DNA from: Xestospongia bergquistia
Lineage: Eukaryota; Porifera; Demospongiae; Haplosclerida; Petrosiidae
Length of the DNA stretch: 64,000 bases
Reading direction: 5' to 3'
NCBI GenBank assembly: GCA_963965975.1
Contig: OZ014420.1
Span: forward strand, 1,700,001 to 1,764,000
In this document: positions 28,912 to 63,714 of the stretch, one piece after another
Numbering within the stretch: the first letter of the stretch is position 1
How the letters are laid out: each line of letters opens with the position of its first letter
Program-made: the position numbers and the translations under genes
The notes under the pieces: model-generated
Told to the model about the DNA's origin: nothing
Database searches by the model: none
The model's input: the letters and a program-made list of their open reading frames with translations, nothing else

Positions 28912-29159
28912 CTTGGTTTAGTTTGATTTGTTGCTTTGGTGGGAAACTGAACAGTTATAATTATATTCAAATTTGTCATAAACTAGTTAACTCTGTTGGT
29001 AATACTGGTATGACCAGTTTCTATACCAACAAATGAGGTAATAAACTAACAATGAGCAGCGATAATTATAATATTGTACATATTACATTCACATTCTTTG
29101 GGGGTTCACCTAATTTCACTGATCTAGGAACATGTAGTTGACTTATGCTCTGAGCTGCA

Positions 29160-29240
29160 AAATCAATGTCATGACATCAACATATAATTGATTTTGTCAT
29201 GACATGTCAAAATCAATCAAGAGCATTAAGTCAAAAAATA
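29160..29240 (-). other. SECIS-like hairpin remnant of pseudogene SEPHS copy 1
   Basis: This matches the SECIS downstream of the intact SEPHS2 gene. The 10-bp helix (ATGTCATGAC with GTCATGACAT on the minus strand) is complete here, with AAA on the 5' side of the loop. The gene it served is a pseudogene. Confidence 0.55.
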
Positions 29241-31074
29241 TTACAAAAGTAACACTGTTGTTATATACAAAGAAATTAACACTCACAGTAATAAATAACA
29301 CACTGTATAACAAACTCTATGGAATAATTGTCTCGTTATCCACATCAATAACCTTGAGGTCTGGAGTTATCTCTGCAGTTCAACTGCCAGCAATAACATC
29401 ACCAATTATCCAAGAAGGCACACCATCAATATCCTAGTAAAACATCCATAGAATATCAAATAAAACTGTGTTATTAATTATACCTCAATTATTTTACAAA
29501 AGGAATTGGATTTATTTTTTGGAAGCAATACCAAGAGGCCACCTACATGAATTATGTTAATAATCAGTGTACTAACTAAACTGGTATTTAGTATACCTGC
29601 AGAGGTATCTGGTCAGAATCCATCTCTTAATTTAAAATTCAGTCCATTTTTAGCTGCTCTGGTTGCTACTTTATCCATGTGATTTAAAACTGAGTAATAG
29701 ACAAAACAAATAAACATATTATTATTCAAATGTATTTGGGAGAGTATGGAGGACAAAGGAGACTTCTTCTCGTTAGGTTTAAGCTAAATTCCAAGCATGG
29801 CCCAATATACCAAATCCACTCACATCAGTTGCCCCATGAGCACCTACATAGATATGTTCTAATTATTAGTAATGTTGGTTAAAAAAGCTTACAATATTTG
29901 TGTATGAGTTGTGCAGCATTTCTGTTCAGTCTGGCCATACAGTACATGGCAGCAGTATAAGCCTCAATGACTAATATAGTAATATCAATATACTATGAAT
30001 AATAGCCTTGGAGATAAAAGTTAAAGTATAAATCTTGAAAGTTGACACACACACCCACCCTCACCCATACACACACACTTAGTGTTGTTTTAGTTAATGG
30101 AAAATATATAATTAAAGTCATTATAGTAAGCTATATTTACTGATCCACACTCCCTAAAAACTAAACAATAACTTATACATAGCAAAGTAATAACCTTAGT
30201 GGACCCATAGGCAAATTGGTCTTAAGTGATGTTTGATGGGATTAAAAGTTGGTGATATTAGGATTATGCAATAATAGCTTTGAATTGTTGAAAACAATTA
30301 GCAAAACTTTCAAATTTGCCAGATGCCCCAAAAACTAAATTTATTGCCAAATTCTCTCATTAAATGTCTTATGAGTAAATCAAGATTTCTTCTTCTTCTT
30401 CAGTCACTAAATCTTTTATTTCATCCCATTTTGACTAAAGAATAGATGACATACATTATCATCACCATAATTAATAACTACCTATTATACCATTAATTAA
30501 TTAATAACTACCTATAATACCATTTCAATCCATTGTTTGGCATTAACAGCAATCTGAATATCTAAGGTTTTGTCAAGACTATGATATCACCCACTATGGC
30601 TTGATCTGGCCTGCAATTATAACAGTCACATGACTATCACATAATGTTTGTCTCATATAATGGACTCATTTTTGAACAGACACCAGAAGCCACGCCCCAA
30701 TGATAAACCAAGGATTAATAACTGACAAAGTGCCATTACAACCAGTCTCAGCTTCTCTACATAAATCTAAAAATACAGGGTCTCATAAATATTAATATAT
30801 AATTCACAAGGGGTCTTGATATCATTAATTCCTTGAATAACAGGATATTAGGATTATGCAATAATAGCTTTGAATTGTTCCAAACAATTAGCAAAACTGT
30901 CAAATTTGCCAAAAATTAAAATTGTTGCCAAACTTTCTAATTAAATATCTTTATTATTCATGAGTAAATCAAATGTCTCTGACTAAACATACCTTCTTTT
31001 TTAGTCACTAAATCTTTTGTTTCATCACATTTTGACTAAAGAACAGACAACATATATTATCATTACTAGTATAT

Positions 31075-31252
31075 TCACTCAATTAATAACTACCTATAAT
31101 ACCATTAGTTAATTAATTACCTACAATATCATTAATTAATTGGTAACTACCTGTAATACATTAATTAGTTAATAACTACCTCTAATCATTAATTAATAAA
31201 TAACTACATATAATAGTATTAATTAATTAATAACTACCAATAATACCATTTC
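31075..31252. repeat. Tandem (attaattaataactacctataatacc) repeat of about 26 bp
   Basis: Five to six imperfect units lie in a SEPHS pseudogene intron. The intact gene has only about three units at 46430-46512; the related copies at 30470-30520, 40650-40755 and 41300-41470 vary in number. Confidence 0.8.
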
Positions 31253-31314
31253 AATCCATTGTTTGGCATTAACAGCAATCTGAGTACCTAAACGTTTGTC
31301 AAGACTGTGACATC

Positions 31315-31601
31315 ATAGGCAGAGGAAGCAAAAAATGCCTGGGGGGGGGGGCAAATCATTTTGCTTTTCAACTACCCACTCAACTATGAAATTTTGTTGC
31401 TAGCATCAAAGTGTTTATGCGTACATGTACACTTAGTTTTGTTTTGAAGTAAATTAATTGTAAACACAGGTATAGTTATGTTGATTAAAATATGCCAAAA
31501 TAGATCTTTCTTCTGCGATTTTCCACATATCTGAGGGGGACAAATCCATCAAAAAACATTCTGGAGGGCCATGGCCCCCTGGCCCCTGTGCATCCTCCAC
31601 C
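31315..31601. mobile_element. MITE-like insert of about 290 bp in the SEPHS pseudogene
   Basis: Comparison with the intact gene (46570-46590) shows extra DNA between gacatca and cccactac. The insert begins TAGGCAGAGGAAGC and its other end, read in reverse complement, begins GGTGGAGGATGC, an imperfect terminal inverted repeat. The flanks share TCA, a possible 3-bp target duplication. It holds an 11-G run near 31341. A shortened copy sits at the same place in pseudogene copy 2. Confidence 0.6.
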
Positions 31602-32122
31602 TCACCCACTACAGCTTGATCTGGCGTGGAATTATAACAGTCACATGACTATCATATGATGTTTGTCTCACATAATGAACTCATTCTTTGAACAGACACC
31701 AGAAGCCACACCCCCAACGATAAACCAAGGATTAATAACTGACTGACCACCATTACAACTAGTCCCAGCTTCTACACATAAATTTAAAAATACAGAGTAT
31801 CATAAATATATAATTCACAAGGGGTCTAGATACCATTAAATCCTTGAATAACAAGTGTGTAACAACATCTCTCTGCACGATTGAGCATTTCACTGACTTC
31901 TAACAAAATAAGAATATTGTCACAGTGTTCTACTCCCATAGCATAGAGATCACTTAACACATTACCACAAGCTGTCTTTCCCTAAAAACAAAAAATAAAT
32001 ATAATAAATATATTTACAATAATAGAGGATGTGTCAATATTATTACTAGCCTGTATATAAGAATCTTCAACTAATGGATAAAAACTGATAATCATTTTGT
32101 TAAGTCACATGGCAACTGATAA

Positions 32123-32165
32123 TATGTTATCTAGACTCTTTGGAAGATTATATGGATTTACACAT
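32123..32165 (-). pseudogene. Short agmatinase fragment at the unit 1/unit 2 junction
   Basis: About 43 bp match the agmatinase coding sequence around 48597-48640. The minus strand reads VNPYNLPKSLDNI against [12 protein letters not shown] in the intact gene. It shows that the duplicated block once reached into the agmatinase gene beside SEPHS2. Confidence 0.75.
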
Positions 32166-32182
32166 CATATAAAGATGTACCG

Positions 32183-35100
32183 AGTGACTTATCTATGGAA
32201 ACATTAGATAAAGATATACCTGAGAAGACAACGATTAAGAAAGAGAATAAAGAAGAAATTTAACTGGAAAAATGACTGCAACTGAAAAAAAGCAAGAGAA
32301 AGAGAATGAAAATAACTAAGAGAAAGAGAGGCAGTATCAATTCACATGTGAGCTATTTGCTGTAATGCACTATATCAGTATATGATTTGTGTTTAATGAG
32401 CATAGTGTTAAATTGGTAATACAATTTATTCATTTTACAGATTAAACGTGCAGTATTAAAAGTAACTCCAGTAAACATCAAAACACTTAAACATAAAAAT
32501 GGAAAGAAAACGTCAAAACCAAGAACTACCAAGAAAGATGTGTTTAGCTATCCAAGCAGTGAAGAAGAACCTTCAATTTTGCAGACAAAACACTCCAAAG
32601 TAAATTCATCATATCAAAAAGCCAAAAAGCTGACTCACAATAACAAGGACAATGAAATAACTAAAGAAATTCCTAATCCCTCCAAGCCAGATGACAATGA
32701 GAAGTCCTCTAAAGTTAGCTCAAAACCAAAAGAAATAAAATCATCAAAAATTAAAGACAAGTCATTAAAGGATATTCCTTCAAAAAAAGAGAAGTCAAAA
32801 CACAAAACAAAACAACTAAAGAAAAGCAAAAAAACTAAAACCCAAACTAGCAAGACTCAACTTAAAAGGAAAGAGAAGGAAGAGTCAAAAAAGTCCAAAA
32901 CTGATCAACAAGTAAAACAAAAAAGAAAATACATTTTCAGTCTGATTCCCATACTGCTTCTTTAGACACTGCTGGGAATGAGACCGGTGCTGCACAATCT
33001 ATTGTTGGTAAAGCTGACTCAAGTAGTCATGAGATTTCAACTGCTGCTACCCCTACTGTGACTCCACCCACTCAAACAGTACTATCATCATCAGATTGGC
33101 TTAGCAGTGATGAAGAAGAGGCCCAAGAAAATAATAAAAGGAGCAAATCTACTAGTGAATCTAGTTTGAAAGTAACAGCTACTAAATCTACATCTAAAAT
33201 AGCAAAACCTTCATCAACTGTTAGTCCTAAAATGACATTATCGTCTGATAGTAGCAGTGATGATGACGATATTCAACAAACTTTTACTACTGCTACCCCT
33301 ACTATGACTCCACCCACTCAGACAGTACTATCATCATCAGATTGGGTTAGCAGTGATGAAGAAGCTCAAGAAAATAATAAAAGGAGCAAATCTACTAGTG
33401 AATCTAGTTTGAAAGTAACAGCTGCTAAATCCACATCTAAAATAGCAAAACCATCATCAACTGTTAGTCCTAAAATGACACTATCATCTGATAATAGCAG
33501 TGATGATGACGATATTCAACTAAATAATAACAAACCTACAACAAAACCCTCTAATACTCATTCAACTGTCAGCAATAACAAAAAAACAGTAACACAAAAG
33601 AAGAAACCAGTTGCTAAACCAACATCTTCAAAAAATCCTCAAACAGCTGCTTTAACACCTGCTTTTATCTCTGACTCCTCCTGGGTCAGTAGTAATGATG
33701 ATGAAAAAACCACAGGGATAAAACCAAAAGCTTTAGCTCCTTCTACTTCTAATAATAAATCAATTCCTGCTAATGAATCAGTGAGTCAAGATAAGAACAT
33801 AGATAATAATGATAGTGAAAGTGATAAAAGTGATGACCTCACTTTTAACACTGCTAGCCACATCTCTCCAAAAACTTCAACTGTACATGTTCCAGTACAC
33901 CAGAATCCTAATAACTACTTATCATCTCCAGATTCTGACTTTGAAGGTGATACTGTATTATCATCAAATGAGACTAGTACCCAGTGCACACTGTCAACAA
34001 TAGATCCTCAATCTAAGAATATATCTACTAATGACCTGAAACAACAAGTGTCAAAGTCTTTAACTGTTCCAGTACTTTCATGCCCTACAGCTTCAGAGAT
34101 AGAGTTAACTACTACTACTACTACTGAACCTAATAATCCCATTATACAAGATTTTGTTGAAGTTGTTGCTTTCGCACAAGATCCAATTCCTCCTGATAAT
34201 CAAGGTAGATGCTGTAAATGAACATTAATAATGATGTTATTTTGAATTAATTATTATCATGTGAACAATTCATATTAATATATAGAAACTAACTTGTATG
34301 TTTATACAAGATAATTGTTATATTGAATGTTTTACTAAATGATAGTTCTTTATGTATTCTTACTTAGAGGAAGGTCATGCAGTAGAGGATTTGATGGAGA
34401 TCACAATAGGACTAAAGAAACAAGATGGCTTAGATGAAGACCACTCATGCAGTGAAGATATTCCACTTCTAGGTGACTTACCTATGGAAACATCAGATAA
34501 AGATATATCAGGTGACTTATTACCTATGGAAACATCAGATAAAGATATATCAGATGACTTATTACCTATGGAAACATCAGATAAAGATATACCTGAGAAG
34601 ACAACAATTGAGAATGAAAAAAAATTAACTCGAAAGATGACTGCAGCTGAAAAAAGCAAGAGAAAGAGAATGAAAATAACTAAGAAAAAGAGAGGCAGTA
34701 TCAATTCACATGTGAGCTATTTGCTGTAATGCACTATATCAGTATATGATTTGTGTTTAATGAGCATAGTGTTAAATTGGTAATACAATTTTTTCATTTT
34801 ACAGATTAAACGTGCAGTATTAAAAGTAACTCCAGTAAACATCAAAACACTTAAACATAAAAATGGAAAGAAAACGTCAAAACCAAGAACTACCAAGAAA
34901 GATATGTTTAGCTATCCAAGCAGTGAAGAAGAACCTTCAATTTTGCAGACAAAACACTCCAAAGTAAATTCATTATATCAAAAAGCCAAAAAGCTGACTC
35001 ACAATAACAAGGACAGTGAAACAGCTAAAGAAATTCCTAATGAAGACATTGAGCGGAGAGACAATAATCAGACTATATTGTCAAAGCCATTGAATAGAAC

Positions 35101-35849
35101 CACATCTACAACACAGTCAATTGAATCTAAGAATACAATAGAAATTACACCTAGTAATTCTGATACTGAAGGAGAAGATATTGATAAAACTCATCAACAA
35201 AATATAATAGACAAACATACTAGTCCTAAGAATCAAGCACACTCTATTACTACTACCTTTACACCTAATCAGACAACGCCCACTAACAAAGTAATTGAAG
35301 GTACATTGATAACATTGCTAAATAGTTATTATTGATATACTTTCTTCAACAGAAGAAGAGGAAGATGGCTCATCAACTGACTGTAGCAGTACAATTGATG
35401 ATAGCTATGAGCAAATTAATTCTAGGAGACACTCTTTATCTCTTCAAGGGTTAGCTACAGATGGTAAGCTGATTCGGACAATGATAAATAACAATGACTT
35501 ACTTATTCTACTTTTATTTTTTATATCTGCCAATTTGATGTACAAGAAAGCCAGTACAATGGTTCCACCTACTGCTAAAATTCATCAAAGACTCACCAAA
35601 AGTATGATACCAACAAAAGTCACTCCGATCCTCCCTGATAAGACTCGGAAGAAAATCCAACAAAAGGGATCAACTCCCTTCTCCTCTACCCACGTAAAGA
35701 AATCATTGGGACACAAGAGTGGACATAAGAAGTCACTACTAGTAACAGCATTAGAGTCAATATCAAAAGAAGAAGAGGAGCTCGCTTTAAATTTATCACA
35801 AGAAGGTTCTAATTTGTCTGAAATTTTGCAGAATGAAAAATATTGGTGA
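32183..35849 (+). pseudogene. Rearranged partial copy 2 of the Lys/Ser-rich gene
   Basis: This starts in the middle of the METSDKDI exon, right after the agmatinase fragment. The next exon (IKRAVLKVT, from about 32441) runs to KEIPN and at 32676 switches without a gap into PSKPDDNEK, which belongs to the large upstream exon, so exon 7-like and exon 5-like sequences are fused. One A fewer in the A-run near 32920 shifts the frame at KQKRKYIF. The frame resumes through 33058-34221 (with 17 extra codons TTGIKPKALAPSTSNNK relative to copy 1), 34352-34729, 34904-35335 and the last exon ending 35849. No N-terminal exons are present. It could still be transcribed, but not as the full protein. Confidence 0.8.
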
Positions 35850-36012
35850 TGACTCGTATGTTTGTAGTTTTAAATACTTTTTTCATGTTTCATTTCTACA
35901 AGTCAAAAATATTTTATAATTAAAGTGAAATTATGGCACAAAATAATGTCAATATATATTTCTCAACCAAAACAAGTTGACATTGTTACAACTAATTGGC
36001 ATTTATTTAAAT

Positions 36013-36797: not shown

Positions 36798-36861
36798 GGG
36801 AATTATTTTCAAAGAGATGTGCATTGTTTAGCAGTTATATTTTGTCATAGCATTTTATAAT

Positions 36862-38198
36862 CTATTTAATGTAAAGTTCTAGTTGATCAAATCCAATATC
36901 TTCATCATTCTTATTGCCATAAGTACAAACTCTAAATTCAATATTGTCGTTGGTTTTAGAAGGCAGTGCTCGATAGAACCATGGAAGACGATTTGATGAA
37001 CAACATGGAGCCTCATTCCAGTGACAATTCTTCCCATCCCACAATGGATCTGTATAGAATCCAGTATGTGATGGAAACAAAAAAGAGCCTGACTCACAAT
37101 AGAAGTCATTGTAGCCAAGAAATTTAGGGAGGTGAGAGGTCCCTCCAGTTTGACATGGACACTCAGAGGATGGCCAACATAAACCAATTTCAGAACATCC
37201 AGATGCATATGTAAAAATATGATGACGAGGGTTGGTCCCATGAGTAAGAGATATTCCATCAACGTAGTTATCATCTGGAGTTGAAGATTGAGGATTACTA
37301 TGAGCAAAACTATCAGTTGTTCCCAGTTGATATCCCCTTACTTTGCCACAAACCATACTATAATTCTGACCTTGGACATTCAGATATGCTGATACACAGC
37401 CACCTTCATATTGGACACGTCTACATATCTTAGGCTTACCACTAGCATTGTAGATCTCAAAGTTATTATTTGGACAATTAGAATAGTTTGCGTCATTTAA
37501 ATCAATTTTGATGACCCTCATCCAACCTCCATGATTGTCACAGTTAGTACCTTGCATCTCACAATACACTTGAACTGCAGTACCATTGCCTGATCTAATC
37601 CAATACATTCCAGACTGCAAAGCAGAGTCATGTTGAAGGATACTTAGACAAGAATCGGCTGGATTGTCTTGTGACTTCCCATAATGAATGTAGTGCCATT
37701 TTTCTTGTAAAATAGGTATCAAGGCATCCACATCAATAGGTGTACCACATGTTTGATTAGAACGATTAGTAGGGAATTCAGTTTTAACAGCACTTGATGC
37801 ACAACTGTATGTACCATCAAGAAAACCTGAGGAAATAAAAATAGAGTATTTAAGATTTTGCATTATTGTAGAGTGTTTAGTTAAACATATAAAGAGTATA
37901 GTCTCAAATACTAACCAAGGTCATACTGGGAGTATATATCAAGAGACTGATCAATGAGAGTATCTTGCAGTGTCCATACAGTTACATTAGTGGTATTGGT
38001 TGCATTAGTCCAGGTGTAATTACCAGATCCAACAGGTTCAACTTTGTCAGTCTTGTTAGCCAGGAATACACCACAAGTGTCAGCTAGTTTGAATGGATAT
38101 TCTCTAGCACAGAACACTCCTGGTGGACATGACTGTAGAGATTGAGCCCCTGCTTTTATAGCAAGGAAGAGTACCAGAATTGACCAATATCTGTACAT
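36862..38198 (-). CDS. Secreted fibrinogen-related (FReD-like) protein, copy 2
   Basis: Exons 37916-38198 and 36862-37826 have exactly the lengths of copy 1 (283 and 965 bp), giving 415 codons with no break. The signal peptide is MYRYWSILVLFLAIKAGAQS. The Cys pattern and the core motifs (GGWMRV, GYQLGTTDSF, DPLWDGKNC, APCCSS) are kept. It is the most divergent of the three copies; many changes lie in the C-terminal half: IGLCWPSSE, GGTSHLPKF, SFLFPSHTGFYTDP and VCTYGNKND. This pattern would suit a changed binding surface, but that is inference. Confidence 0.85.
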
Positions 38199-38635
38199 CT
38201 TGGTTATTTCATTTGGTGCTTTGGTGTGAAACTGAACAGTTATAATTACATTCAAATTTGTCATAAACTAGTTAACTCTGTTGGTAATACTGGTATGACC
38301 AGTTTCTATACCAACAAATGAGGTAATAAACTAACAATGAGCAGCGATAATTATAATATTATATCATATTACATTCACATTCTTTGGGGGTTCACCTAAT
38401 TTCACTGATCTAGGAACATGTAGTTGACTTATGCTCTGAGCTACAAAATCAATGTCATGACATCAACATATCATTGATTTTGTCATGAGATTTCAAAATC
38501 AATCAAGAGCATTAAGTCAAAAAATATTACAAAAGTAACACTGTTGTTATATACAAAGAAATTAACACTCACAGTAATAAATAACACACTGTATAACAAA
38601 CTCTATGGAATAATTGTCTCGTTATCCACATCAAT

Positions 38636-39093
38636 AGGTGTACCACATGTTTGATTAGAACGATTAGTAGGGAATTCAGTTTTAACAGCACTTGATGCAC
38701 AACTGTATGTACCATCAAGAAAACCTGAGGAAATAAACATTTATTTAAGATTTTGCATTATTGTAGAGTGTTTAGTTAAACACATAAAGAGTATAGTCTC
38801 AAATACTAACCAAGGTCATACTGGGAGTATATATCAAGAGACTGATCAATGAGAGTATCTTGCAGTGTCCATACAGTTACATTAGTGGTATTGGTTGCAT
38901 TAGTCCAGGTGTAATTACCAGATCCAACAGGTTCAACTTTGTCAGTCTTGTTAGCCAGGAATACACCACAAGTGTCAGCTAGTTTGAATGGATATTCTCT
39001 AGCACAGAACACTCCTCGTGGACATGACTGTAGAGATTGAGCCCCTGCTTTTATAGCAAGGAAGAGTACCAGAATTGACCAATATCTGTACAT
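38636..39093 (-). pseudogene. Partial tandem duplicate of the FReD 5' end
   Basis: Exon 1 (signal peptide through YSQYDLG) and about 105 bp of exon 2 are repeated 895 bp to the right of copy 2. Exon 2 then stops at the sequence atccacatcaat, where it joins the 3' flank of the SEPHS pseudogene. It therefore encodes only a signal peptide and N-terminal region. The promoter region upstream of exon 1 is duplicated with it, so a short transcript is possible. Confidence 0.85.
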
Positions 39094-39497
39094 CTTGGCT
39101 ATTTCATTTGTTGCTTTGGTGTGAAACTGAACAGTTATAATTACATTCAAATTTGTCATAAACTAGTTAACTCTGTTGGTAATACTGGTATGACCAGTTT
39201 CTATACCAACAAATGAGGTAATAAACTAACAATGAGCAGCGATAATTATAATATTATATCATATTACATTCACATTCTTTGGGGGTTCACCTAATTTCAC
39301 TGATATAGGAACATGTAGTTGACTTATGCTCTGAGCTGCAAAATCAATGTCATGACATCAACATATCATTGATTTTGTCATGAGATGTCAAAATCAATCA
39401 AGAGCATTAAGTCAAAAAATATTACAAAAGTAACACTGTTGTTATATACAAAGAAATTAACACTCACAGTAATAAATAACACACTGTATAACAAACT

Positions 39498-41880
39498 CTA
39501 TGGAATAATTGTCTCGTTATCCACATCAATAACCTTGAGGTCTGGAGTTATCTCTGTAGTTCAACTGCCAGCAATGACATCACCAATTATCCAAGAAGGC
39601 ACACCATCAATATCCTAGTAAAACATCCATAGAATATCAAATAAAACTGTGTTATTAATTATACCTCAATTTCTTTACAAAAGGAATTGGCTTTAATTTT
39701 TGGAAGCAATACCAAGAGGCCACCTACATGAATTATGTTAATAATCAGTGTACTAACTAAACTGGTATTTAGTATACCTGCAGAGGTATCCGGTCAGAAT
39801 CCATCTCTTAATTTAAAATTCAGTCCATTTTTAGCTGCTCTGGTTGCTACTTTATCCATGTGATTTAAAACTGAGTAATAGACAAAACAAATAAACATAT
39901 TATTATTCAAATGTATTTAGGAGAGTATGAGAGACAAAGGAGACTTCTTCTCGTTAGGTTTAAGCTAAATTCCAAGCATGGCCCAATATACCAAATCCAC
40001 TCACATCAGTTGCCCCATGAGCACCTACATAGATATGTTCTAATTATTAGTAATGTTGGTTAAAAAGCTTACAATATTTGTGCATGAGTTGTGTAGCAGT
40101 TCTGTTCAGTCTGGCCATACAGTACATGGCAGCAGTATAAGCCTCAATAACTAATATAGTAATATCAATATACTATGAATAATAGCCTTGGAAATAAAAG
40201 TTAAAGTATAAATCTTGAAAGTTGACACACACACCCACCCTCACCCACACACATACACTAAGTGTTGTTTTAGTTAATGGAAAATATATAATTAAAGTCA
40301 TTATAGTAAGCTATATTTACTGATCCACACCCCCTAAAAACTAAACATTAACTTATACATAGCAAAGTATAACCTTGGTGGACCCATAGGCAAATTGGTC
40401 TTAAGTGATGTTTGATGGGATTAAAAGTTGGTGATATTAGGATTATGCAATAATAGCTTTGAATTGTTGAAAACAATTAGTAAAACTTTCAAATTTGCCA
40501 GATGCCCCCAAAACTAAATTTATTGCCAAATTCTCTCATTAAATGTCTTATGAGTAAATCAAGATTTCTTTGACTAAACATACCTTCTTCTTTAGTCACA
40601 AAATTTTTATTTTTACTAAAGAACAAAGTATATTATCAATACTATAATTAATAACTACCTATAAAACCATTAATTAATTAATAGATACCTATAATACCAA
40701 TAATTAATTAATAACTACCTATAATACCATTAATTAATTAATAACTACCAATAATACCATTTCAATCCATTGTTTGGCATTAACAGCAATCTGAATATCT
40801 AAGGTTTTGTCAAGACTATAACATCACCCACTATGGCTTGATCTGGCCTGCAATTATAACAGTGACATGACTATTACATAATGTTTGTCTCACATAATGA
40901 ACTCATTTTTTGAACAGACACCAGAACCACACCCCAACGATAAACCAAGGACAGAGTGCCATTACAAACAGTCTCAGCTTCTCTATATACGTAAATCTAA
41001 AAATGCAGGGTCTCATAAATATTAATATATAATTCACAAGGGGTCTGGATATCATTAAATCCTTGAATAACAAGATATTAGGATTATGCAATAATAGCTT
41101 TGAATTGTTCCAAACAATTAGCAAAACTGTCAAATTTGCCAAAAATTAAAATTGTTGCCAAACTTTCTTATTGAATATCTTTATTATTCATGAGTAAATC
41201 AAATGTCTCCGACTAAACATACATTCTTTATTAGTCATTTATTTCATCACATTTTGACTAAAGAACAGACAACATATATTATCATTACTAGTATATTCAC
41301 TCAATTAATAACTACCTATAATACTATTAATTAATTAATAACTACCTACAATATCATTAATTAATTGGTAACTACCTATAATACATTAATTAGTTAATAA
41401 CTACCTATAATCATTAATTAATAAATAACTACATATAATAGTATTAATTAATTAATAACTACCTATAATACCATTTCAATCCATTGTTTGGCATTAACAG
41501 CAATCTGAGTACCTAAACGTTTGTCAAGACTGTGACATCATAGGCAGAGGAAGCAAAAAATGCCTGGGGGGGGGGGGGGGAGCAAATCATTTTGCTTTTC
41601 AACTACCCACTCAACTATGAAATTTTGTTGCTAGCATCAGTGTTTATGCATACATGTACACTTAGTTTTGTTTTGAAGTAAATTAATTGTAAACACAGGT
41701 ATAGTTATGTTGATTAAAATATGCCAAAATAGATCTTTCTTCTACGATTTTCCACATCTGAGGGGGGCAAATCCATCAAAAATTTTCCACCTCACCCACT
41801 ACAGCTTGATCTGGCGTGGAATTATAACAGCCACATGACTATCACATAATGTTTGTCTCACATAATGAACTCACTCTGAT
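39498..41880 (-). pseudogene. Selenophosphate synthetase pseudogene, copy 2
   Basis: Same layout as copy 1: no N-terminal exons, in-frame TGA at 39561-39563 and 39793-39795, a doubled [15 protein letters not shown] exon (40760-40850 and 41480-41830) and the MITE-like insert in the second of these. The exons beyond 41870 that remain in copy 1 are deleted here. It was duplicated together with the surrounding unit. Confidence 0.85.
41541..41795. mobile_element. MITE-like insert, second copy (internally shortened)
   Basis: This is the same insert, at the same position, as 31315-31601, with a longer G run near 41567 and about 45 bp missing near the right end (after aaatccatcaaa). The shared position means it was copied with the unit rather than inserted twice. 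Confidence 0.6.
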
Positions 41881-41913
41881 AATCATTTTGTTAAGTCATA
41901 TGGCAACTGATAA

Positions 41914-41957
41914 TATGTTATCTAGACTCTTTGGAAGATTATATGGATTTACACATC
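41914..41957 (-). pseudogene. Short agmatinase fragment at the unit 2/unit 3 junction
   Basis: Same 43-bp agmatinase piece as at 32123, again followed directly by the truncated METSDKDI exon of the Lys/Ser-rich gene. Confidence 0.75.
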
Positions 41958-41975
41958 ATATAAAGATGTACCAAG

Positions 41976-43267
41976 TGGACTTATCTATGGAAACATCAGA
42001 TAAAGATATGCCTGAAAAGACAACGATTAAGAAAGTGAATAAGAAGAAATTTAACTGGAAAAATGACTGCAACTGAAAAAAAGCAAGAGAAAGAGAATGA
42101 AAATAACTAAGAGAAAGAGATCAATTCACATGTGAGTTATTTGCTGTAATGCACTATATCAGTATATGATTTGTGTTTCATGAGCATAGTGTTAAATGTG
42201 TAATACAATTTATTAATTTTACAGATTAAATGTGCAGTATTAAAAGTAACTCCAGTAAACATCAAAACACTTAAACATAAAAATGGAAAGAAAATGTCAA
42301 AACCAAGAACTACCAAGAAAGATGTGTTTAGCTATCCAAGCAGTGAAGAACTTTTCAATTTTGCAGACAAAACACTTCAAAGTAAATTCATCATATCAAA
42401 AAGCCAAAAAGCTGACTCACAATAACAAGGACAGTGAAACAGCTAAGGAAATTCCTAATGAAGACATTGAGCGGAGAGACAATAATCAGACTATATTGTC
42501 AAAGCCATTAAATAGCACCACATCTAAAGCACAGTCAATTGAATCTAAGAATACAATAGAAATTACACCTAGTAATTCTGATACTGAAGGAAAAGATATT
42601 GACAAAACTCATCAACAAAATATAATAGACAAACATACTAGTCCTAAGAATCAAGCACACTCTATTACTAATACCTTTACACCTAATCAGACAACGCCCA
42701 CTAACAAAGTAATTGAAGATACATTGATAACATTGCTAAATAGTTATTATTGATATACTTTCTTCAACAGAAGAAGAGGAAGATGGCTCATCAACTGACT
42801 ATAGCAGTACAATTGATGATAGCTATCAGCAAATTAATTCTAGGAGACACTCTTTATCTCTTCAAGGGTTAGCTACAGATGGTAAGCTGATTCAGACAAT
42901 GATAAATGACAATGACTTACTTATTCTACTTTTATTTTTTATATCTGCCAATTTGATGTACAAGAAAGCCAGTACAATGGTTCCACCTACTGCTAAAATT
43001 CATCAAAGACTCACCAAAAGTATGATACCAACAAAAGTCACTCCGATCCTCCCTGATAAGACTCGGAAGAAAATCCAACAAAGGGGATCAACTCCCTTCT
43101 CCTCTACCCACGTAAAGAAACCATTGGGACACAAGAGTGGACATAAGAATTCACTACCAGTAACAGCATTAGAGTCAATATCAAAAGAAGAAGAGGAGCT
43201 CGCTTTAAATTTATCACAAGAAGGTTCTAATTTGTCTGAAATTTTGCAGAATGAAAAATATTGGTGA
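41976..43267 (+). pseudogene. Truncated copy 3 of the Lys/Ser-rich gene
   Basis: This begins inside the METSDKDI exon, which is altered and ends early (FNWKNDCN then stop). The later exons match copies 1 and 2: IKCAVLKVT from about 42225, a long exon to 42753 with a changed start near the SSEE motif, the EEEDGSS exon and the final exon ending LQNEKYW at 43267. All N-terminal and most low-complexity coding sequence is missing. Confidence 0.8.
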
Positions 43268-43600
43268 TAACTCATATGTTTGTAGTTTTAAATACTTTTT
43301 TCATGTTTCATTTCTACAAGTCAAAAAAACTTTATAATTAAAGTGAAATTATATGGTGCAAAATAATGTCAACATATATTTCTTAAGCAAGCAATTTGAC
43401 AATATTACAATTTATTGGCATTTTAATATCTTCAAGCATCGACTTTCAAGATCTTTAATAAAGTAGACAATCAAAATAGTATATATTTAACTTTCAAAAT
43501 ACACTATGGGAGAACAAAAGGAGGGAATGGTTTTCAAAGGATGTGCAATATTTATGTGTGCTCTGTTTAGCAGTTATATTTTGTCATAGCATTTTGTGAT

Positions 43601-44934
43601 TTATTTAATGTAAAGTTCTAGTTGATCAAATCCAACATCTTCATCATTCTTAGGGCCAGCAGTACAAACTCTAAATTCAATATTGTCATTGGTTTTAGAG
43701 GGTAGTGCTTGATAGAACCATGGAAGACGATTCGATGAACAACATGGAGCCTCTTTCCATAGACAATTTTTCCCATCCCACAATGGATCTGTAAAGAATC
43801 CAGCACCCCATGGATGCCAGTAAGAACCTGACTCACAATAGAAGTCATTGTAGCCTAGGAATTTAGGAAATTGAGAGGTCGCTCCGGTTTGACATGGACA
43901 CTCGGAGATTGCCCAACATGAACCACTTTCAGAACATCCAGATGCATATGTAAAGATATGATGACGAGGGTTGGTCCCATGAGTAAGAGATATTCCATCA
44001 ACGTAGTTATCATCTGGAGTTAAGGATTGAGGATTACCACGAGCAAAACTATCAGTTGTTCCCAGTTGATATCCCCTTACTTTGCCACAAACCATACTAT
44101 AATTCTGACCTTGAACATTCAGATATGCTGATACACAGCCACCTTGATATTGGACACGTCTACATATCTTAGGCTTACCACTAGCAATGTAAATCTCAAA
44201 GTTATTACTTGGACAAGTATAATAGTTTGTGTCATTTAAATCAATTTTGATGACCCTCATCCAACCTCCATGATTGTCACAGTTAGTACCTTGCATCTCA
44301 CAATACACTTGAACTGCAGTACCACTGCCTGATCTAATCCAATACATTCCAGACTGCAAAGCAGAGTCATGTTGAAGGATACTCAGACAAGAGTCAGCTG
44401 GATTGTCCTGTGACTTCCCATAATGAATGTAGTGCCATTTTTCTTGTAAAACAGGTATCAAGGCATCCACATCAATAGGTGTACCACATGTTTGATTAGA
44501 ACGATTAGTAGGGAATTCAGTTTTAACAGCACTTGATGCACAACTGTATGTACCATCAAGAAAACCTGAGGAAATAAACATTTATTTAAGATTTTGCATT
44601 ATTGTAGAGTGTTTAGTTAAACACATAAAGAGTATAGTCTCAAATACTAACCAAGGTCATACTGGGAGTATATATCAAGAGACTGATCAATGAGAGTATC
44701 TTGCAGTGTCCATACAGTTACATTAGTGGTATTGGTTGCATTAGTCCAGGTGTAATTACCAGATCCAACAGGTTCGACTTTGTCAGTCTTGTTAGCCAGG
44801 AATACACCACAAGTGTCAGCTAGTTTGAATGGATATTCTCTAGCACAGAACACTCCTGGTGGACATGACTGTAGAGATTGAGCCCCTGCTTTTATAGCAA
44901 GGAAGAGTATCAAAATTGACCAATATCTGAACAT
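43601..44934 (-). CDS. Secreted fibrinogen-related (FReD-like) protein, copy 3
   Basis: Exons 44652-44934 and 43601-44565 again measure 283 and 965 bp (415 codons). The signal peptide MFRYWSILILFLAIKAGAQS is identical to copy 1, and most of exon 2 is close to copy 1. Local differences are SYWHPWGAGFFTDP and VCTAGPKND. The core Cys and FReD-like motifs are intact. It lies downstream of the intact SEPHS2 on the same strand, with about 400 bp between them. Confidence 0.85.
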
Positions 44935-45164
44935 CTTGGTTTAGTTTGATTTGTTGCTTTGGTGTGAAACTGAACAGTTATAATTACATTCAAATTTGTC
45001 AAACTAGAAAGCTTGGTTGGTAATACTGGTATGACCAGTTTCTATAGCAACAAATGAGGTAATAAACTGACAATGAATAAGAGCAGAATATTATATCATA
45101 TTACATTCACATTCTTATGAGGGTTCATCTAACTTCACCAATTTAATAATATATAGTTAACTTA

Positions 45165-45242
45165 TGCTCTGAGCTATAAAATCAATCTCATGACATCAAG
45201 AAATCCTTGATTTTGTCATGAGATGTCAAAAAATCAAGAGCA
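45165..45242 (-). promoter_or_regulatory. SECIS element in the SEPHS2 3' UTR
   Basis: On the minus strand, about 93 bases past the stop: helix I GCTCT/AGAGC, quartet strands TTGAC (45229-45225) and TGAT (45184-45181), a perfect 10-bp helix ATCTCATGAC/GTCATGAGAT, an AAA on the 5' side, then a 6-bp upper helix ATCAAG/CTTGAT with a 5-base loop. This is the layout of a type II SECIS, with UGA/GA quartet and AA(A) motif. The first quartet base is T where most have A or G. SECIS elements recruit SBP2 and direct UGA to selenocysteine. Confidence 0.8.
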
Positions 45243-45334
45243 CTAAGTCAAAATATATTACAAATGTAAGACTGTTTTTGTATAAAATTTAACACAGACA
45301 GCAGCAATATAACACACACATTGTATAACAAATT

Positions 45335-47744
45335 CTATGGAATAATTGTCTTGTTATCCACATCAATAACCTTGAAATCTGGAGCTATCTCTGCAGTTCG
45401 ACTGCCTGCAATGACATCACCAATTATCCAAGAAGGCACACCATCTATATCCTAGTAAGACATCTATAAAATACCTATAATAAAGCTATGCTATCAAATT
45501 CACCTCAATTTCTTTACAAAAGGACTCGGCTTTATTTTTTGGAAGCAATACCAAGAGCCCACCTACATGAATTATGTTAATAATAGTGTACCTACTAAAC
45601 TGGTATTTAGTATACCTGAGGTTTCTGCTGAGAATCCTTCCTTTAATTTAAAATTCAGTCCATTTTTAGCTGCTCTGGTTGCTACTTTATCCATGTGATT
45701 TAAAACTGAGTATTAGACAAAACAATGAAACATATCAATACTCAAACTTACTTGGGAGAGTATGGAGGACAAAGGAAACTTCTTCTCGTTGGGTTTGAGC
45801 TAAATTCCGTGCATGGCCCAATATACCAAATCCAGTCACGTCAGTTGCTCCATGAGCACCTATATAGATACCATAAATGTTCCAATTATCAGTAGTGTTA
45901 TTTGATAAAGCTTACCATATTTGTGCATGAGTTGTGCAGCAGTTCTATTCAGTCTGGCCATACAATACATAGCAGCAGTATAAGCCTCAATGACTAATAA
46001 AGTAATAACAATATACTATGAATAATAGCCTGAAAATAACAGTTAAAGTATAAATCTTGACAGTTGACACACATACACATACTATACTACTAAACTAGCA
46101 GGGAAATATTGGCAAAACTGATCATCACTCCCTAACAACTAAACATTGACTATACACAGCAAAGTATGACTTCTGCTGGACCTATAGGCGAATTGGTCTA
46201 GTGATGTTTGATAGGGTTAAAATTCATGATATTAGAATAATGTAATAATTGTTACAAACAATTATTGAAAACATCAAATTTGCTAAATCCCAAAAAATTA
46301 AAATTGTTGCCAAACTTTCTTATTAAATATCTTAATTAGTCATGAGTAATACCTTCTTCTTTAGTCACTAAATCTTTTATTTCATCCCATTTTGACTAAA
46401 GAATAGATGACACACATTATCATTACCATAATTAATAACTACCTATTATACCATTAATTAATTAATAACTACCTATTATACCATTAATTAATTAATAACT
46501 ACCTATAATACCATTTCAATCCATTGTTTGGCATTAACAGCAATCTGAGTACCTAAAGGTTTTGTCAAGACTATGACATCACCCACTACGGCTTGATCAG
46601 GCCTGGAATTATAACAGTCACATGACTATCATATGATGTTTGTCTCACATAATGAACTCATTCTTTGAACAGACACCAGAAGCCACACCCCCAACGATAA
46701 ACCAAGGATTAATAACTGACTGACCACCATTACAACTAGTCCCAGCTTCTCTACATAAATCTAAAAATACAGGGTATCATAAATATATAATTCACAAGGG
46801 GCCTGGATACCATTAAATCCTTGAATAACAAGTGGTGTAACAACATCTCTCTGTTTGCGATTAAGCATTTCACTGACTCCTAACAACATAAGAACATTAT
46901 CACAGTGTTCTACTCCCATAGCATAGAGATCACTTAACACATTAGCACAAGCTATCTTTCCCTAAAAACAAAACATAGAAGAAGAGGTAGAGGTAGAAGA
47001 GGTATCAATATTATTACTAACCTGCATATAAGGATCTTCAACTAATGGATAAAAACTATAATCATTTTGTTAAGTCAAATAATAACTGACTTGTTTTAAT
47101 ACTGACTACCTATTAATATAGTATCTGTTTAATAGTTTGATTATGGTGATATCATGGTATAACTAAGCAATACTATCATAAAGGTAGTGACTATTTGTCC
47201 AACATAAAGTCCATACTTTGCTATGTATTGTGATACTAATGTCCACTCCATAAACTTATACATAAAAAAGTATACAACAAAGAATGACCTTCTAGACAAA
47301 GAGCTACTGTCTATTATAAAGTGAGTCATGAGAGGATACAAGTCTGTGGTTTGAATCAAATAAATACCAGGATGTCTGGTTCTCATTACACAACTGTCCA
47401 ACCCAATACCCATCCCCTCCCCCTGGGGACGAGGGAGTCCTTTGAAAACGATGAGAGATAGTAATCAAATAATTTAAACCAATGTACCTTCCAGGAGTTT
47501 TAGAAGTTCCTCCTGGGGGACTTTACACCCTCATCCTTTCAGCTAAAGGAATACATAGCTGGTTAGTTGTGAATTAACTATATAATAAATGGATATCAAT
47601 CGTGTGGAATAGCTTACTCGAGTGTAGTTGGTCAGACGAAAGTCTTCTTCTAAACCATATTGTACAGGATTAAATGGAGGACGCTATTAAAACAATGAAC
47701 ATTAGTACACAACGTTAAAAACGTCATACCTTCACAACCTCCAT
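45335..47744 (-). CDS. SEPHS2: Selenophosphate synthetase 2, a selenoprotein
   Basis: This enzyme makes selenophosphate from selenide and ATP for selenocysteine synthesis. The start is MEVVK (47730-47744), then [22 protein letters not shown] (47618-47683). Exon 3 (47488-47542) reads [19 protein letters not shown]; the TGA is at the catalytic Cys/Sec position of the family. Further exons give [121 protein letters not shown] and a C-terminus NKTIIP. Apart from the TGA the frame is open throughout, and a SECIS lies in the 3' UTR. Agmatinase 1 stops 57 bp upstream on the same strand. Two broken copies lie to the left. Confidence 0.93.
47531..47533 (-). other. In-frame TGA read as selenocysteine in SEPHS2
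   Basis: The codon sits in KG-U-GCKVPQE, aligned with the Sec of animal SEPHS2 and the catalytic Cys of bacterial SelD. All other exons are intact. Confidence 0.9.
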
Positions 47745-47801
47745 CTTTACTAAGCCCCGCCCATTAATAACAACTACCAAAAAATAATGTTTAAAATCAG
47801 T
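47745..47801 (-). promoter_or_regulatory. 57-bp agmatinase 1-SEPHS2 gap with a GC box
   Basis: The gap contains GGGCGGGGC about 10 bp before the SEPHS2 ATG, an Sp1/KLF-type box. It contains no AATAAA, so the agmatinase 1 transcript should run into SEPHS2. A CTTAG acceptor-like site directly before the ATG means a 5' UTR intron or trans-splicing cannot be excluded. Confidence 0.45.
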
Positions 47802-49010
47802 TTATATATTGTAATATTTGACTTCAGGCAAAACACATAACATTTCAAAAAGTAGATGAGCTGCAGTAAAAGCAGTCCTTCCAGAATCATCATATAATGG
47901 ATTAACCTATTAACAAAATACAATAATATTAACAAGATCTTAGTGGTTGCATTACTGACTTCAACAACATCTACACCAACAAGATTGAGTCCTCTCAAAC
48001 CTCTAACAATCTCCAAAGCTTGTATAGATGTTAGACCACCAATCTCAGGAGTACCTATAATACATAGCATTCATGCTGGATAATACACTCCAATATACAC
48101 TGACCAGTCCCAGGGCAATATGCTGGATCAATACCATCAATGTCAAATGTAAAATACACAGGACGATGACTACCCATTTGCTCTCTAATAGAATCCATTA
48201 AAGGAATCAAGGACTTTTGAGAGCAATCATCAGCCATGATCATTCGAAAACCCTATAATCATAATGTTAATTGAAATCAACTACATGTTATTTACAAACC
48301 TGTTCTTTTGGCCAATTAAAATCATATGGAGAATATCCTCCTCCTCTTAATCCAATTTGTACCACATAATTAGGATCAATAAGTCCCTCTTCAACTGCTC
48401 GTCTCATTGGTGTTCCATGTGCTATCTTCTCTCCAAACATGGTATCATTCACATCTGCATGAGCATCAACCTGAATCATACCTACTGGACCATATTTTGC
48501 ACCTATGGCTCTCAAGACACCAAGAGCTAGAGTGTGATCTCCACCTATCCCTAGTGGTGTACAACCTACTGATAATATCTTCTTATAAACCTCAGTTATG
48601 TTATCTAGACTCTTTGAGAGATTGTATGGATTTACAGAGACATCCCCAATGTCAGCAACTTGTAAAGATTCAAATGGTGCTGCTCCAGTCATTCTGTTAT
48701 GTGGACCTAGTACAGTAGACTCATGTCGTATCATTCTAGGTCCATGTCGCGTCCCTGATCTCCATGAAGTACCGTTGTCCATTGGTATTCCCACAAAACA
48801 GGCATCTAGTCCTTCAGGATTGGCTGGTTGTAGTGGTAGTCTCATCATAGTAGCTATCCCGCCAAACTCAGGTACTACTGTTCCTGGTAAAGGGATGTTA
48901 AATCCTCCTGATCTGGTAAGAGTCGCAGTATGATGGATACTCCTTTTGAGAAGTGGAAGCCATCTCAATAATGATATAGTCTGTTTATTCATAATCGAGA
49001 TAGTAGCCAT
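47802..49010 (-). CDS. Mitochondrial guanidino-acid hydrolase/agmatinase 1
   Basis: Four exons give about 350 residues of the ureohydrolase family, which splits urea from agmatine or other guanidino acids using two Mn ions. The N-terminus ([20 protein letters not shown]) is basic and hydrophobic like a mitochondrial presequence. Metal ligands are all present: [13 protein letters not shown] and FDIDGIDP. Other family motifs are [44 protein letters not shown] and the C-terminus [11 protein letters not shown] with [14 protein letters not shown]. The start at 49010 (MATISIMNK) matches the copy at 63324; an upstream in-frame ATG at 49055 would overlap the agmatinase 2 gap. It most resembles agmatinase and guanidinobutyrase; the true substrate cannot be read from the sequence. 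Confidence 0.88.
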
Positions 49011-49088
49011 TTTGTTTATTATTAAAATATTTTCACTGCAAAACTGACGACACACCCTAATTAAAAATATTACACTGTTAGCAATAAT
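49011..49088 (-). promoter_or_regulatory. 78-bp gap between agmatinase 2 and agmatinase 1
   Basis: On the minus strand it contains AATAAA (in TAATAATAAACAAAATGG) only a few bases before the agmatinase 1 ATG. If this is the agmatinase 2 polyadenylation signal, that transcript ends inside agmatinase 1. Confidence 0.45.
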
Positions 49089-50348
49089 CTATTTAGTGTA
49101 TTTGACTCCAGGTAAAACACACAACATTTCAAAGAGCAGGTTAGCAGCAGTAAGTGCAGTTGCTCCAGAAGCATCATACAATGGATTAACCTATATATAG
49201 TAGAATATAATATAAAAACTTTATGAGTAAGTATCAACCTCAACAAGATCTGTTGCAACAAGATTAATTCCTCGCAAACCTCGGATGATCTCCAGTGCTT
49301 GCATAGATGTCAATCCTCCTACTTCTGGAGTACCTGTATATATGCATATGTATTTTATTATACATACATACATATATATATATATACAAAAGGTATTCTT
49401 ACCTGTTCCAGGACAAAAAGAAGGATCAATAGAGTCAATATCAAATGTGAGATATACAGGTCGATTCCCACCCATTTGTTCTCTTACAGATTTCATTAAA
49501 GGTACTAGAGATTTGTTCCAGCACTCAGTGGCCATAACCATACGGAAACCCTAAACAGAAAACTTTTTAATTGAGTTAACATCTCATAATAGATAACATA
49601 TAACTACTATTAAACTTTAATATGTTTCTTTCAATAACAATATTATTCACATGCAAGTGTCGTTTACCTGATCTTGTGGCCATTTATAGTCATCAGGTCC
49701 ATATCCTCCTCCTCGTAACCCAATTTGGACCACATAATTAGGATCAATAAGTCCTTCTTCAACTGCTCGTCTCATTGGTGTTCCGTGAGCTATCTTCTCT
49801 CCAAACATGGTATCATTCACATCTGCATGAGCATCAACCTGAATCATACCCACTGGACCGTATTTCTCACTGACAGCTCTCAGCACACCAAGAGCTAGAG
49901 TATGGTCTCCACCTATCCCAATTGGAATACATTTAGCATTGAGGATCTTCTTATAGAACTCAGTGATGTTATCAAGGCTCTTTGAGAGATTGTATGGGTT
50001 CACAGGAACATCACCAATATCGGCAACTTGCAAAGATTCAAATGGTGCAGCTCCAGTCACTCTGCTGTATGGACCAATCAAACTAGACTCATGTCGTATC
50101 ATTCTAGGTCCATGTCTTGTTCCTGATCTCCATGAAGTACCATTATCCATTGGTATTCCCACAAAACAGACATCTAATCCTTCAGGATCACCTTGTTGGA
50201 GAGGAAGTCTCATCATTGTAGCTGTCCCTCCAAATTCAGGAACCACAAATTCTGATAAAGGGAAATTGAATGACTTTTGAAGACCTGCAGCATAGTGGAC
50301 TCCTCTCCTGTTGAAAAGAGACAGACCAGACCTTAAAATATGATACAT
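49089..50348 (-). CDS. Mitochondrial guanidino-acid hydrolase/agmatinase 2
   Basis: A tandem paralogue of agmatinase 1 with the same four-exon plan. The N-terminus MYHILRSGLSLFNRRGVHYAAG looks like a mitochondrial presequence. Metal-binding motifs [13 protein letters not shown] and [11 protein letters not shown] are intact, as are [43 protein letters not shown] and the end [20 protein letters not shown] through VKYTK. Differences from copy 1 (SIDPSF for GIDPAY; PVNPYN for SVNPYN) suggest old divergence, possibly with different substrates. It shares high identity with copies at 60883 and 63406. Confidence 0.88.
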
Positions 50349-51084
50349 TTTAGCTATTGTCAGTAGCTACGAAATATTCGCAGATAAAACACTTAATATG
50401 CAAAATTTCCAATTATATAAAATTTAATAACTATCATATACTTAATAAACCATGCATTTATCACTTAAGTTGATTAATAAAGAAGTCAATTGAAGAAAAT
50501 ATAACAGTGACCCAAATACCTTCTGGAAGTCTGGAAGTCTTAATGGGATGTTGTGAAAGTCAAGATTTTAGCTCCTTCCCAAGTTAAGAAAGATTTGACA
50601 CTATTCTCCTAATCTTGTTTAGTCCACCTCTCCATACCAAGAAGACAAACGTTTTAAGTAGATAGTTATAATTAGGAGGCAGGAAAAGATCAAAGCAAAG
50701 ATTCGATTGGAAATTCCATTCAGGCTATCAATTAAAATATAGAACTATTATGGGTATTTTGTGCATATATTACTCAACAACATTAAATCTACCCACTTTA
50801 AAGCTATAATATTGATATATATAGTTATGCATGGCCTTCATGAAGAAGGCAATGGCCAAAATATTGTATGCTATATATTTGCATTCCAATTGATACAATA
50901 GCAGTATTGTATAAATTAAAATCAAGCATAATCATGTGATGTGTGACAGATAAGGCTATCATGTGACTTCTAGATACATGAACAAGTTTAACCCAGCTAT
51001 AATAGGTGGAATATAAGTTGGATAATCTTACTTATAATATAGTACATATAAATTGAACTTTAATAGAGATGTAATACCGCAGTA

Positions 51085-51811
51085 AAAATTGATTTATTGA
51101 TTTAACCAATATATCGTTATATAGGTTGCATGTAAAGTATACATTATACTGTCTTCATACCTAACACGTGTATCCTATTTACTAAACAGTCAATCTGATA
51201 GTATGTTAAAGATGTTTAGTGTTTAGTCATGATCAATGTGATAGCATGTTAGGAATGTTTAGTGGTTAGTCAATCTGATAGTACATTAGCAATGTTTGAT
51301 CAATCTGATAAATGTGTTAACAATATTTAGACATTCTGATAGTATGTTAACAATGTTTAGTCAATCTGATAGTATGTTAGTAATGTTTGATCAATCTGAT
51401 AATATGTTAACAATGTTTAGACATTCCAATAATACATTAAGAATGTTTAGCCAATCTGATAGTGCGTTAAGAATGTTTAGTCAATCTGATACTACGTGAG
51501 CAATGTTTAGTCAATCTGATAGTACGTTAGGGATGTTTAGTCAATCTGAGAATATGTGAGCAATGTTTAGTCAATCTGATAGTACGTTAGGAATGTTTAG
51601 TCGATAATACATGAGCAATGTTTAGTCAATCTGATAGTATGTTAGGAATGTTTAGTCAATTTGATAGCACATTAACAATGTTTAATCAGTCTGATAGTAC
51701 ATTAGGAACGTCTAGTCAATCTGATAGTACATTAGGGATGAAAAGAAATGATGTATACTTTACATGCAACCTGAAAAACCATATATTGGTTAAAGCAACC
51801 AATCAAATTTT
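51085..51811. mobile_element. TIR element with a minisatellite core
   Basis: The left end (51085-51146) and right end (51750-51811) are inverted repeats of about 60 bp, sharing TTTAACCAATATATSGTT and GGTTGCATGTAAAGTATACAT. Between them lies a 30-bp minisatellite. There is no transposase, so it is a non-autonomous DNA element. Clear target duplications were not seen. Confidence 0.65.
51190..51740. repeat. 30-bp minisatellite, about 18 units
   Basis: Consensus elements caatctgatagtacgttag and gaatgtttagt repeat at 30 bp with point variants and a few shortened units. The 66-67 codon open frames here arise because 30 is a multiple of three. Confidence 0.9.
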
Positions 51812-60882: not shown

Positions 60883-61171
60883 CTACTTCATGTATTTGAC
60901 TCCAGGTAATACACATAACATTTCAAAGAGCAGGTTAGCAGCAGTAAGGGCAGTTGCTCCAGAAGCATCATACAATGGATTAACCTATATATAGTAGAAT
61001 ATAATATAAAAACTTAATGAGCAAGTACTGACCTCAACAAGATCTGTTGCAACAAGATTAATTCCTCGCAAACCTCGGGTGATCTCCAGTGCTTGCATAG
61101 ATGTCAATCCTCCTACTTCTGGAGTACCTGTATATATGCATATGTATTTTATTATACATACATACATAGAT

Positions 61172-61208
<37 letters not shown>

Positions 61209-62185
61209 AGGTATTTTTACCTGTTCCAGGACAAAAAGAAGGATCAATAGAGTCAATATCAAATGTGAGATATACAGGTCGATTTCCACCCATTTGTTCT
61301 CTTACAGATTTCATTAAAGGTACTAGAGATTTGTTCCAGCACTCAGTGGCCATAACCATACGAAAACCCTAAACAGAAAACTCTTTTTAATTGAGTTAAC
61401 ATCTCATAATAGATAACATATAACTACTATTAAACATTAATATGTTTCTTTCAATAACAATATTATTCACGTGCACGTGTCGTTTACCTGATCTTGTGGC
61501 CATTTATAGTCATCAGGTCCATATCCTCCTCCTCGTAACCCAATTTGGACCACATAATTAGGATCAATAAGTCCTTCTTCAACTGCTCGTCTCATTGGTG
61601 TTCCGTGAGCTATCTTCTCTCCAAACATGGTATCATTCACATCTGCATGAGCATCAACATGAATCATACCCACTGGACCGTATTTGTCACTGACAGCACT
61701 CAGCACACCAAGAGCTAGAGTATGGTCTCCACGACTCCACCTATCCCAATTGGAATACATTTAGCATTGAGGATCTTCTTATAAAACTCAGTGATGTTAT
61801 TGAGGCTCTTTGAGAGATTGTACGGGTTCACAGGAACATCACCAATATCAGCAACTTGCAAAGACTCAAATGGTGCAGCTCCAGTCACTCTGCTGTATGG
61901 ACCAATCAAACTAGACTCATGTCGTATCATTCTAGGTCCATGTCTTGTTCCTGATCTCCACGAAGTACCATTATCCATTGGTATTCCCACAAAACAGACA
62001 TCTAATCCTTCAGGATCACCTTGTTGGAGAGGAAGTCTCATCATTGTAGCTATCCCTCCAAACTCAGGAACTACAGTCTCTGGTAAAGGAAAGTTGAATG
62101 GTTTCTGAAGAGCTATAGCATGGTGGACTCCTCTCCTGTTGAAAAGTGATAGACAAAGCCTTAAAGAATGGCAAATCTTAGCCAT
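60883..62185 (-). pseudogene. Agmatinase 3, frameshifted copy of agmatinase 2
   Basis: All four exons and splice sites of agmatinase 2 are recognisable, with the start MAKICHSLRLCLSLFNRRGV and the end VKYMK. An 8-bp tandem duplication (ccacgact/ccacctat context, about 61727-61742) breaks the frame exactly within the GGDHT metal-binding motif, giving IGIGGVVETIL and stop. Elsewhere few changes are seen ([16 protein letters not shown]), so the break is recent. An assembly error is possible. An intron holds a (CA)n run at 61174-61198. Confidence 0.75.
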
Positions 62186-63676: not shown

Positions 63677-63709
<33 letters not shown>

Positions 63710-63714
63710 TATAC

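Follow-up and report, generated by a model that had tools for sequence, protein, structure and literature searches.

The stretch of DNA analysed here, 64,000 nucleotides in length and referred to below as the window, appears to contain an intact animal selenophosphate synthetase (SPS) gene of the SPS2-Sec kind, in which the UGA codon of exon 3 encodes selenocysteine (Sec). We put the probability of this reading at about 95%; that the gene is transcribed, that Sec is inserted and that the enzyme is active we infer from the genomic sequence. From selenide and ATP, SelD enzymes make selenophosphate, which supplies the selenium for Sec. In the mechanism proposed, the exon 3 UGA would be decoded as Sec by tRNA-Sec(UCA), with a SECIS hairpin in the 3' UTR directing the insertion and a stem-loop past the UGA, lying across the junction of exons 3 and 4, probably helping the decoding. 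The enzyme would then produce selenophosphate with Sec31 and Lys34 in its active site. The initial annotation of the region had taken the TGA for selenocysteine rather than a nonsense mutation. That view is supported by the protein family, the active-site position of the codon, its status as lone internal stop, a SECIS-like hairpin, an SRE-like stem-loop, a tRNA-Sec gene and other selenoprotein-like loci.

Gene structure and protein family

The gene model, built from splice borders and homology, comprises 14 exons on the minus strand between positions 47744 and 45335 of the window, with GT-AG borders at all 13 introns. Exon 1 (47730..47744) would encode MEVVK, its start codon being predicted from the splice border and the frame. 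Exon 2 (47618..47683, 22 residues) is supported by the splice model and by alignment to solved structures. Exon 3 (47488..47542, 55 nt), supported by direct reading, splice model and alignment, carries the TGA which, from alignment and frame, is read as selenocysteine at codon 31 (47531..47533). The start of exon 4 (47340..47439) pairs with the end of exon 3 in the SRE-like stem-loop of the spliced mRNA. The remaining exons follow from the splice model, namely exons 5 (47022..47055), 6 (46811..46961), 7 (46649..46760), 8 (46512..46602), 9 (46353..46395), 10 (45916..45993), 11 (45752..45859), 12 (45616..45705), 13 (45504..45562) and 14 (45335..45451), the last including the terminal TAG.

Spliced together, the exons amount to 1119 nt and give a 372-codon frame in which the only in-frame stops are the TGA at codon 31 and the terminal TAG at codon 373. 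The placing of the TGA in exon 3 by the initial annotation was thus borne out by direct reading (47533-47531), as was its statement that every other exon is open and in frame. For a selenoprotein search it had proposed the stretch 44900-47800 on the minus strand; SPS itself ends at 45335, and 44900 is, by eye, about where the next gene starts. Upstream on the same strand lies an arginase-family gene whose stop codon is separated from the SPS start codon by about 57 bp (47745-47801). This compact spacing possibly reflects a shared promoter or co-transcription.

For protein searches with the spliced product, Cys was put in for the TGA residue. The NCBIfam selD model TIGR00476 (cut-off 125) is matched at 252.5 bits. 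Two narrower SelD models are also matched, each short of its own cut-off, and so are the Pfam families AIRS (44.2 bits) and AIRS_C (60.1 bits), both above cut-off. Among proteins of solved structure, human selenide, water dikinase 1 (SEPHS1; PDB 3fd5) ranks first, matched at 440 bits over residues 6-365. A second entry of the same name comes next, and then PDB 5l16 (321 bits), which we take to be a Leishmania protein, and bacterial-type enzymes. The initial annotation held that the SelD/SEPHS family has Cys or Sec at the TGA position. The alignment does give Cys in 5l16 and 2yye, while SEPHS1 has Thr where the sequence here has Sec. The motif is shared with 5l16, annotated as a putative selenophosphate synthetase, which reads LKGCSCKLPQ with Cys in place of the Sec found here. 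A lysine three residues past the TGA position is common to the aligned enzymes, and in the present protein U31 and K34 fall within LKGUGCK. These two residues correspond to the catalytic pair of SelD.

tRNA-Sec and selenoprotein-like loci in the genome

A tRNA-Sec gene is present on contig 5, scoring 78 bits against a cut-off of 47 and with the anticodon TCA according to ARAGORN; four more matches in the genome all lie below the cut-off. When the same search was applied to control genomes, matches appeared in 14 of 14 and exceeded the cut-off in five, and for this reason the 78-bit match alone was used.

Genome-wide, the Rfam SECIS_1 model gave at least two matches, one of them above the cut-off (133 of 3264 candidates scored). 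The matched loci, on contigs 2 and 8 (L026/L027), adjoin SelS-like and SelW-like exons. The SelS-like pieces score 26.0 and 15.6 bits against the Selenoprotein_S family, both below its cut-off of 29.8, and the SelW-like piece scores 29.1 bits against the Rdx/SelW family, where the cut-off is 22.6. By these sequence matches, the two loci are probably two further selenoprotein genes of the genome.

The predicted SECIS-like element past the stop codon

About 90 nt past the stop codon lies a type-II SECIS-like element (45164..45243, minus strand), recognized from its predicted fold, a descriptor and its copies elsewhere in the window. Neither this element nor the stem-loop following the UGA is mentioned in the initial annotation. 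The element has a lower helix of 7 bp and a quartet formed by UUGA (from 45229) and UGAU (from 45184); helix II is paired along all of its 10 bp, AAA bulges out on the 5' side, and a mini-stem of 6 bp forms the apex. The fold of 45335-45090 has a predicted energy of -61.9 kcal/mol (z -4.47), and none of 200 shuffled sequences was as stable. The spacers of the hairpin, at 11 nt and 29 nt, agree with the published SECISearch spacing NTGA-(10-13)-AA-(15-39)-GA, a rule which, as given in the available part of PMC2375036, allows any base before TGA.

Both strands of the 64 kb were scanned with a SECIS descriptor which was written once the hairpin had been seen. It gave six hits in the window: the SPS hairpin at 13.0, its three copies at 13.0, 10.5 and 10.5, and two others at 10.0 and 6.5. 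Thirty first-order randomised windows averaged 8.0 hits, against the six real ones, and their top score was 11.5, against 13.0. Since the randomised windows hold as many hits, the number of hits lends no support to the hairpin and its score alone speaks for it. As a check of the descriptor, the SelS-like and SelW-like SECIS loci were scored too; at 10.0 and 9.5 they fall inside the random range.

Rfam SECIS_1 did not match the hairpin, either over the window at the gathering cut-off or over 44700-45400 at E-values of up to 10. We judge the model to be insensitive in this genome, because its genome-wide run gave so few matches. The permissive search of 44700-45400 returned seven Rfam matches. 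None of them reached the gathering cut-off, the families are unrelated, and we took them as chance; the top one, snoR64 (E 0.61), overlaps the SECIS-like hairpin.

The base before a SECIS quartet is described as A or, less often, G in the available parts of PMC11227280 and PMC2375036. All four genomic copies of the present element have UUGA instead, outside the AUGA and GUGA contexts, while the cores of this genome's SelS-like and SelW-like SECIS loci read AUGA. The U before the quartet is the lone departure from the textbook found in the SPS gene, and a mild oddity. It seems reasonably likely that a working animal SECIS can have U directly before its non-Watson-Crick quartet (UUGA_AA). If so, UUGA would join AUGA and GUGA as a third context, occurring in the gene that all other synthesis of Sec relies upon, and would widen the SECIS rule slightly and in a way that can be tested. 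The word 'uuga' is absent from the main text of PMC3473315 and PMC11227280, as far as that text was available, and a whole-word search for papers that contain all of SECIS, UUGA and AUGA found none; UUGA SECIS elements may all the same have been described in print.

A stem-loop following the UGA

In the spliced SPS mRNA a stem-loop is predicted whose main stem begins about 9 nt past the UGA and closes across the junction of exons 3 and 4. The part of PMC4561486 available to us describes SPS2 genes as having Sec redefinition elements. For the 57-nt stretch starting at the UGA, none of 2000 synonymous recodings was as stable, in a control which starts at the TGA and draws its codons from the rest of the SPS gene, which is A+T-richer. 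Among sliding windows of the coding sequence, only one of 354 was more stable than the post-UGA stretch, and that one overlaps it. Dinucleotide shuffles gave weaker support for the stem-loop: for two segments, 12 of 1000 and 36 of 1000 shuffled sequences were at least as stable. The segments 'whole' and 'downstream57' of this analysis are offset by one base.

Copies of the gene and their origin

A search of the 146-Mb genome with the SPS protein, at E-values of up to 10, gave 29 matches, all of them in the window (19 candidates scored). Outside the window, this search with the full protein revealed no SPS among the 19 best candidates scored, a scope which a very divergent SPS may have escaped. 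A second intact, Cys-bearing SEPHS gene, which the initial annotation had said would count against its reading, was likewise not found in the genome search. Searching the genome for the AIRS family produced no match (0 of 1 genomes), which we read as insensitivity to short exons because the full protein matched the same genome.

The broken neighbouring copies mentioned in the initial annotation prove to be two truncated SPS pseudogenes and a stray 3' end, all on the minus strand. Copy B, at about 41.9-39.3 kb (39310..41930), has in-frame stops and a SECIS copy at 39406-39310; its exons 1-5 and most of exon 6 were not found. The stray 3' end, at 38.6-38.4 kb (38415..38636), has its own SECIS copy at 38511-38415. 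Copy C, at about 32.2-29.1 kb (29129..32170), again has in-frame stops and a SECIS copy, at 29225-29129; here exons 1-4 were not found. In both B and C the exon 7-9 region is repeated internally; both are without the Sec exon and, by eye, start with a fragment like the neighbouring arginase-family gene. Of 1367 aligned bases, B and C have 1326 in common (97.0%). Over the codons compared (209-365), stops at gene positions 270, 272, 310 and 352 are common to both, B having an extra one at 209. On our reading, an early truncated SPS duplicate was re-copied within a larger segmental duplication, and one copy alone, the intact gene, kept its constraint. We also considered whether B and C might represent a new non-Sec SPS1 duplicate; this was rejected, since they are without exons 1-4 and have four in-frame stops in common.

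The four SECIS copies can be aligned over 116 columns. Under the predicted structure, 97.8% of 92 cells in this alignment form standard pairs, compared with 45.7% at most when the partner is slid by 1-3 columns, and two pairs are altered on both sides. The covariation is not beyond that of shuffled columns, being reached in 106 of 500 column shuffles, so we claim no selection on the copied elements. With four sequences, the alignment is consistent with the predicted structure and is no proof of selection.

Nested segmental duplications of 1.8-5 kb and 88-96% identity are visible in the window (26019-30842 with 41953-46830; 24227-27441 with 32675-35955; 36818-38636 with 43557-45368). They hold SPS pieces together with a gene showing a weak COLFI match (PF01410, 22.4 bits, below the cut-off of 26.2), and the SPS pseudogenes probably arose through them. 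Elsewhere on the minus strand, 47802-50362 and 60877-64000 contain four related gene copies arranged as two tandem pairs. One exon of this four-copy region, 49010-48300, belongs to the arginase family (PF00491, 167 bits). Within it 48.2-49.6 kb matches 62.5-64.0 kb with 93.8% identity over 1528 bases, and 49.1-50.4 kb matches 60.9-62.2 kb with 92.6%. Between genes, at 51188-51740, short units (ACTATCAGATTGACTAAACATT..., minus strand) are repeated in tandem in degenerate form, as seen by eye and in the self-comparison.

Alternative readings of the UGA codon

Given that two adjacent SPS copies are pseudogenes, so that the locus does decay, the TGA could be regarded as a nonsense mutation and the SPS copy carrying it as a young pseudogene like its neighbours. 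This is very improbable. The lone internal stop in 372 codons falls exactly on the Sec site. Where the intact gene and the copies differ in amino acid over codons 209-365 (four gapped codons of B omitted), SEPHS1 agrees with the intact gene seven times in the comparison with B and eight times in that with C, with the copy only once in each, and with neither at 14 and 10 positions. Identity between the intact gene and the copies is 91.7% (B) and 92.9% (C) over exons 9-14, and 79.0% and 80.8% over the introns between these exons. Moreover no other SPS was found, yet the genome has tRNA-Sec and selenoprotein-like loci.

The strong stem-loop after the UGA might instead suggest readthrough with an ordinary amino acid, giving an SPS1-like product and no selenoprotein, as in the hymenopteran SPS1-UGA type; such elements occur in SPS1-UGA genes too (PMC4561486). 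The hymenopteran genes, however, are described in the available part of the same source as lacking SECIS elements and their hosts as having lost selenoproteins, while the gene here has a SECIS-like element and its genome tRNA-Sec and other selenoprotein-like loci. A genome using selenoproteins needs an SPS2, and we give this possibility as little credence as the nonsense mutation. Least probable of all is a transcript that omits exon 3 or takes a TGA-free exon, comparable to ascidian SPS-Gly, even though ascidian SPS genes do have alternative 5' exons (PMC4561486, available text). Skipping of exon 3, named in the initial annotation as an outcome that would speak against it, removes 55 nt and shifts the frame into stops, with termination after 44 residues; and the tblastn matches in the window, other than the gene itself, that extend into residues 28-46 do no better than chance (E of 4 or more), none of them reading LKG-x-GCKVPQ.

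Relation to known SPS genes

An intact Sec-bearing SPS is best seen as a new instance of a known gene, because such a gene is the inferred ancestral state in animals and has been reported from Amphimedon. The available text of a 2015 Genome Research study (PMC4561486) attributes a single Sec-bearing SPS to the last common animal ancestor; it assigns SPS1 a function other than selenophosphate synthesis and considers that undivided animal SPS2 genes probably do both. Its main text contains none of the words sponge, Amphimedon or Porifera. A 2012 BMC Genomics study (PMC3473315), in the part available, records a single SPS selenoprotein for every one of six invertebrates, among them the sponge Amphimedon queenslandica. 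Our search suggests that the animal has no other SPS; if so, the present gene would represent the ancestral, undivided form and not a one-to-one counterpart of vertebrate SEPHS2. The name 'SEPHS2' used in the initial annotation therefore holds in the functional sense of a Sec-bearing SPS2, but would not, for a lone SPS, imply a one-to-one relationship with SEPHS2 as against SEPHS1.

The gene extends by one the list of animals where a lone Sec-bearing SPS has been found, in agreement with the published inference of a single-SPS ancestor. It leaves the understanding of selenium metabolism unchanged, Sec-bearing SPS being already well known in animals. Its value is rather for annotation: a standard pipeline would probably truncate the SPS at codon 31 or split the gene, and two pseudogenes at the same locus make miscalling likely.

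Compared with metazoan SPS2 (SEPHS2 in vertebrates) as described in the accessible part of PMC4561486, the gene is alike in its SelD domain pair, active-site Sec-UGA, 3' UTR SECIS and UGA stem-loop. It differs in having U, not A or G, before the SECIS quartet and in that no separate SPS1 was found. Aq.SPS of Amphimedon queenslandica, as it appears in the part of PMC3473315 available, is likewise a single SPS selenoprotein gene with a SECIS in a non-bilaterian animal; compared by its listing, the SECIS of Aq.SPS is GUGA_AA, whereas that of the present gene is UUGA_AA.
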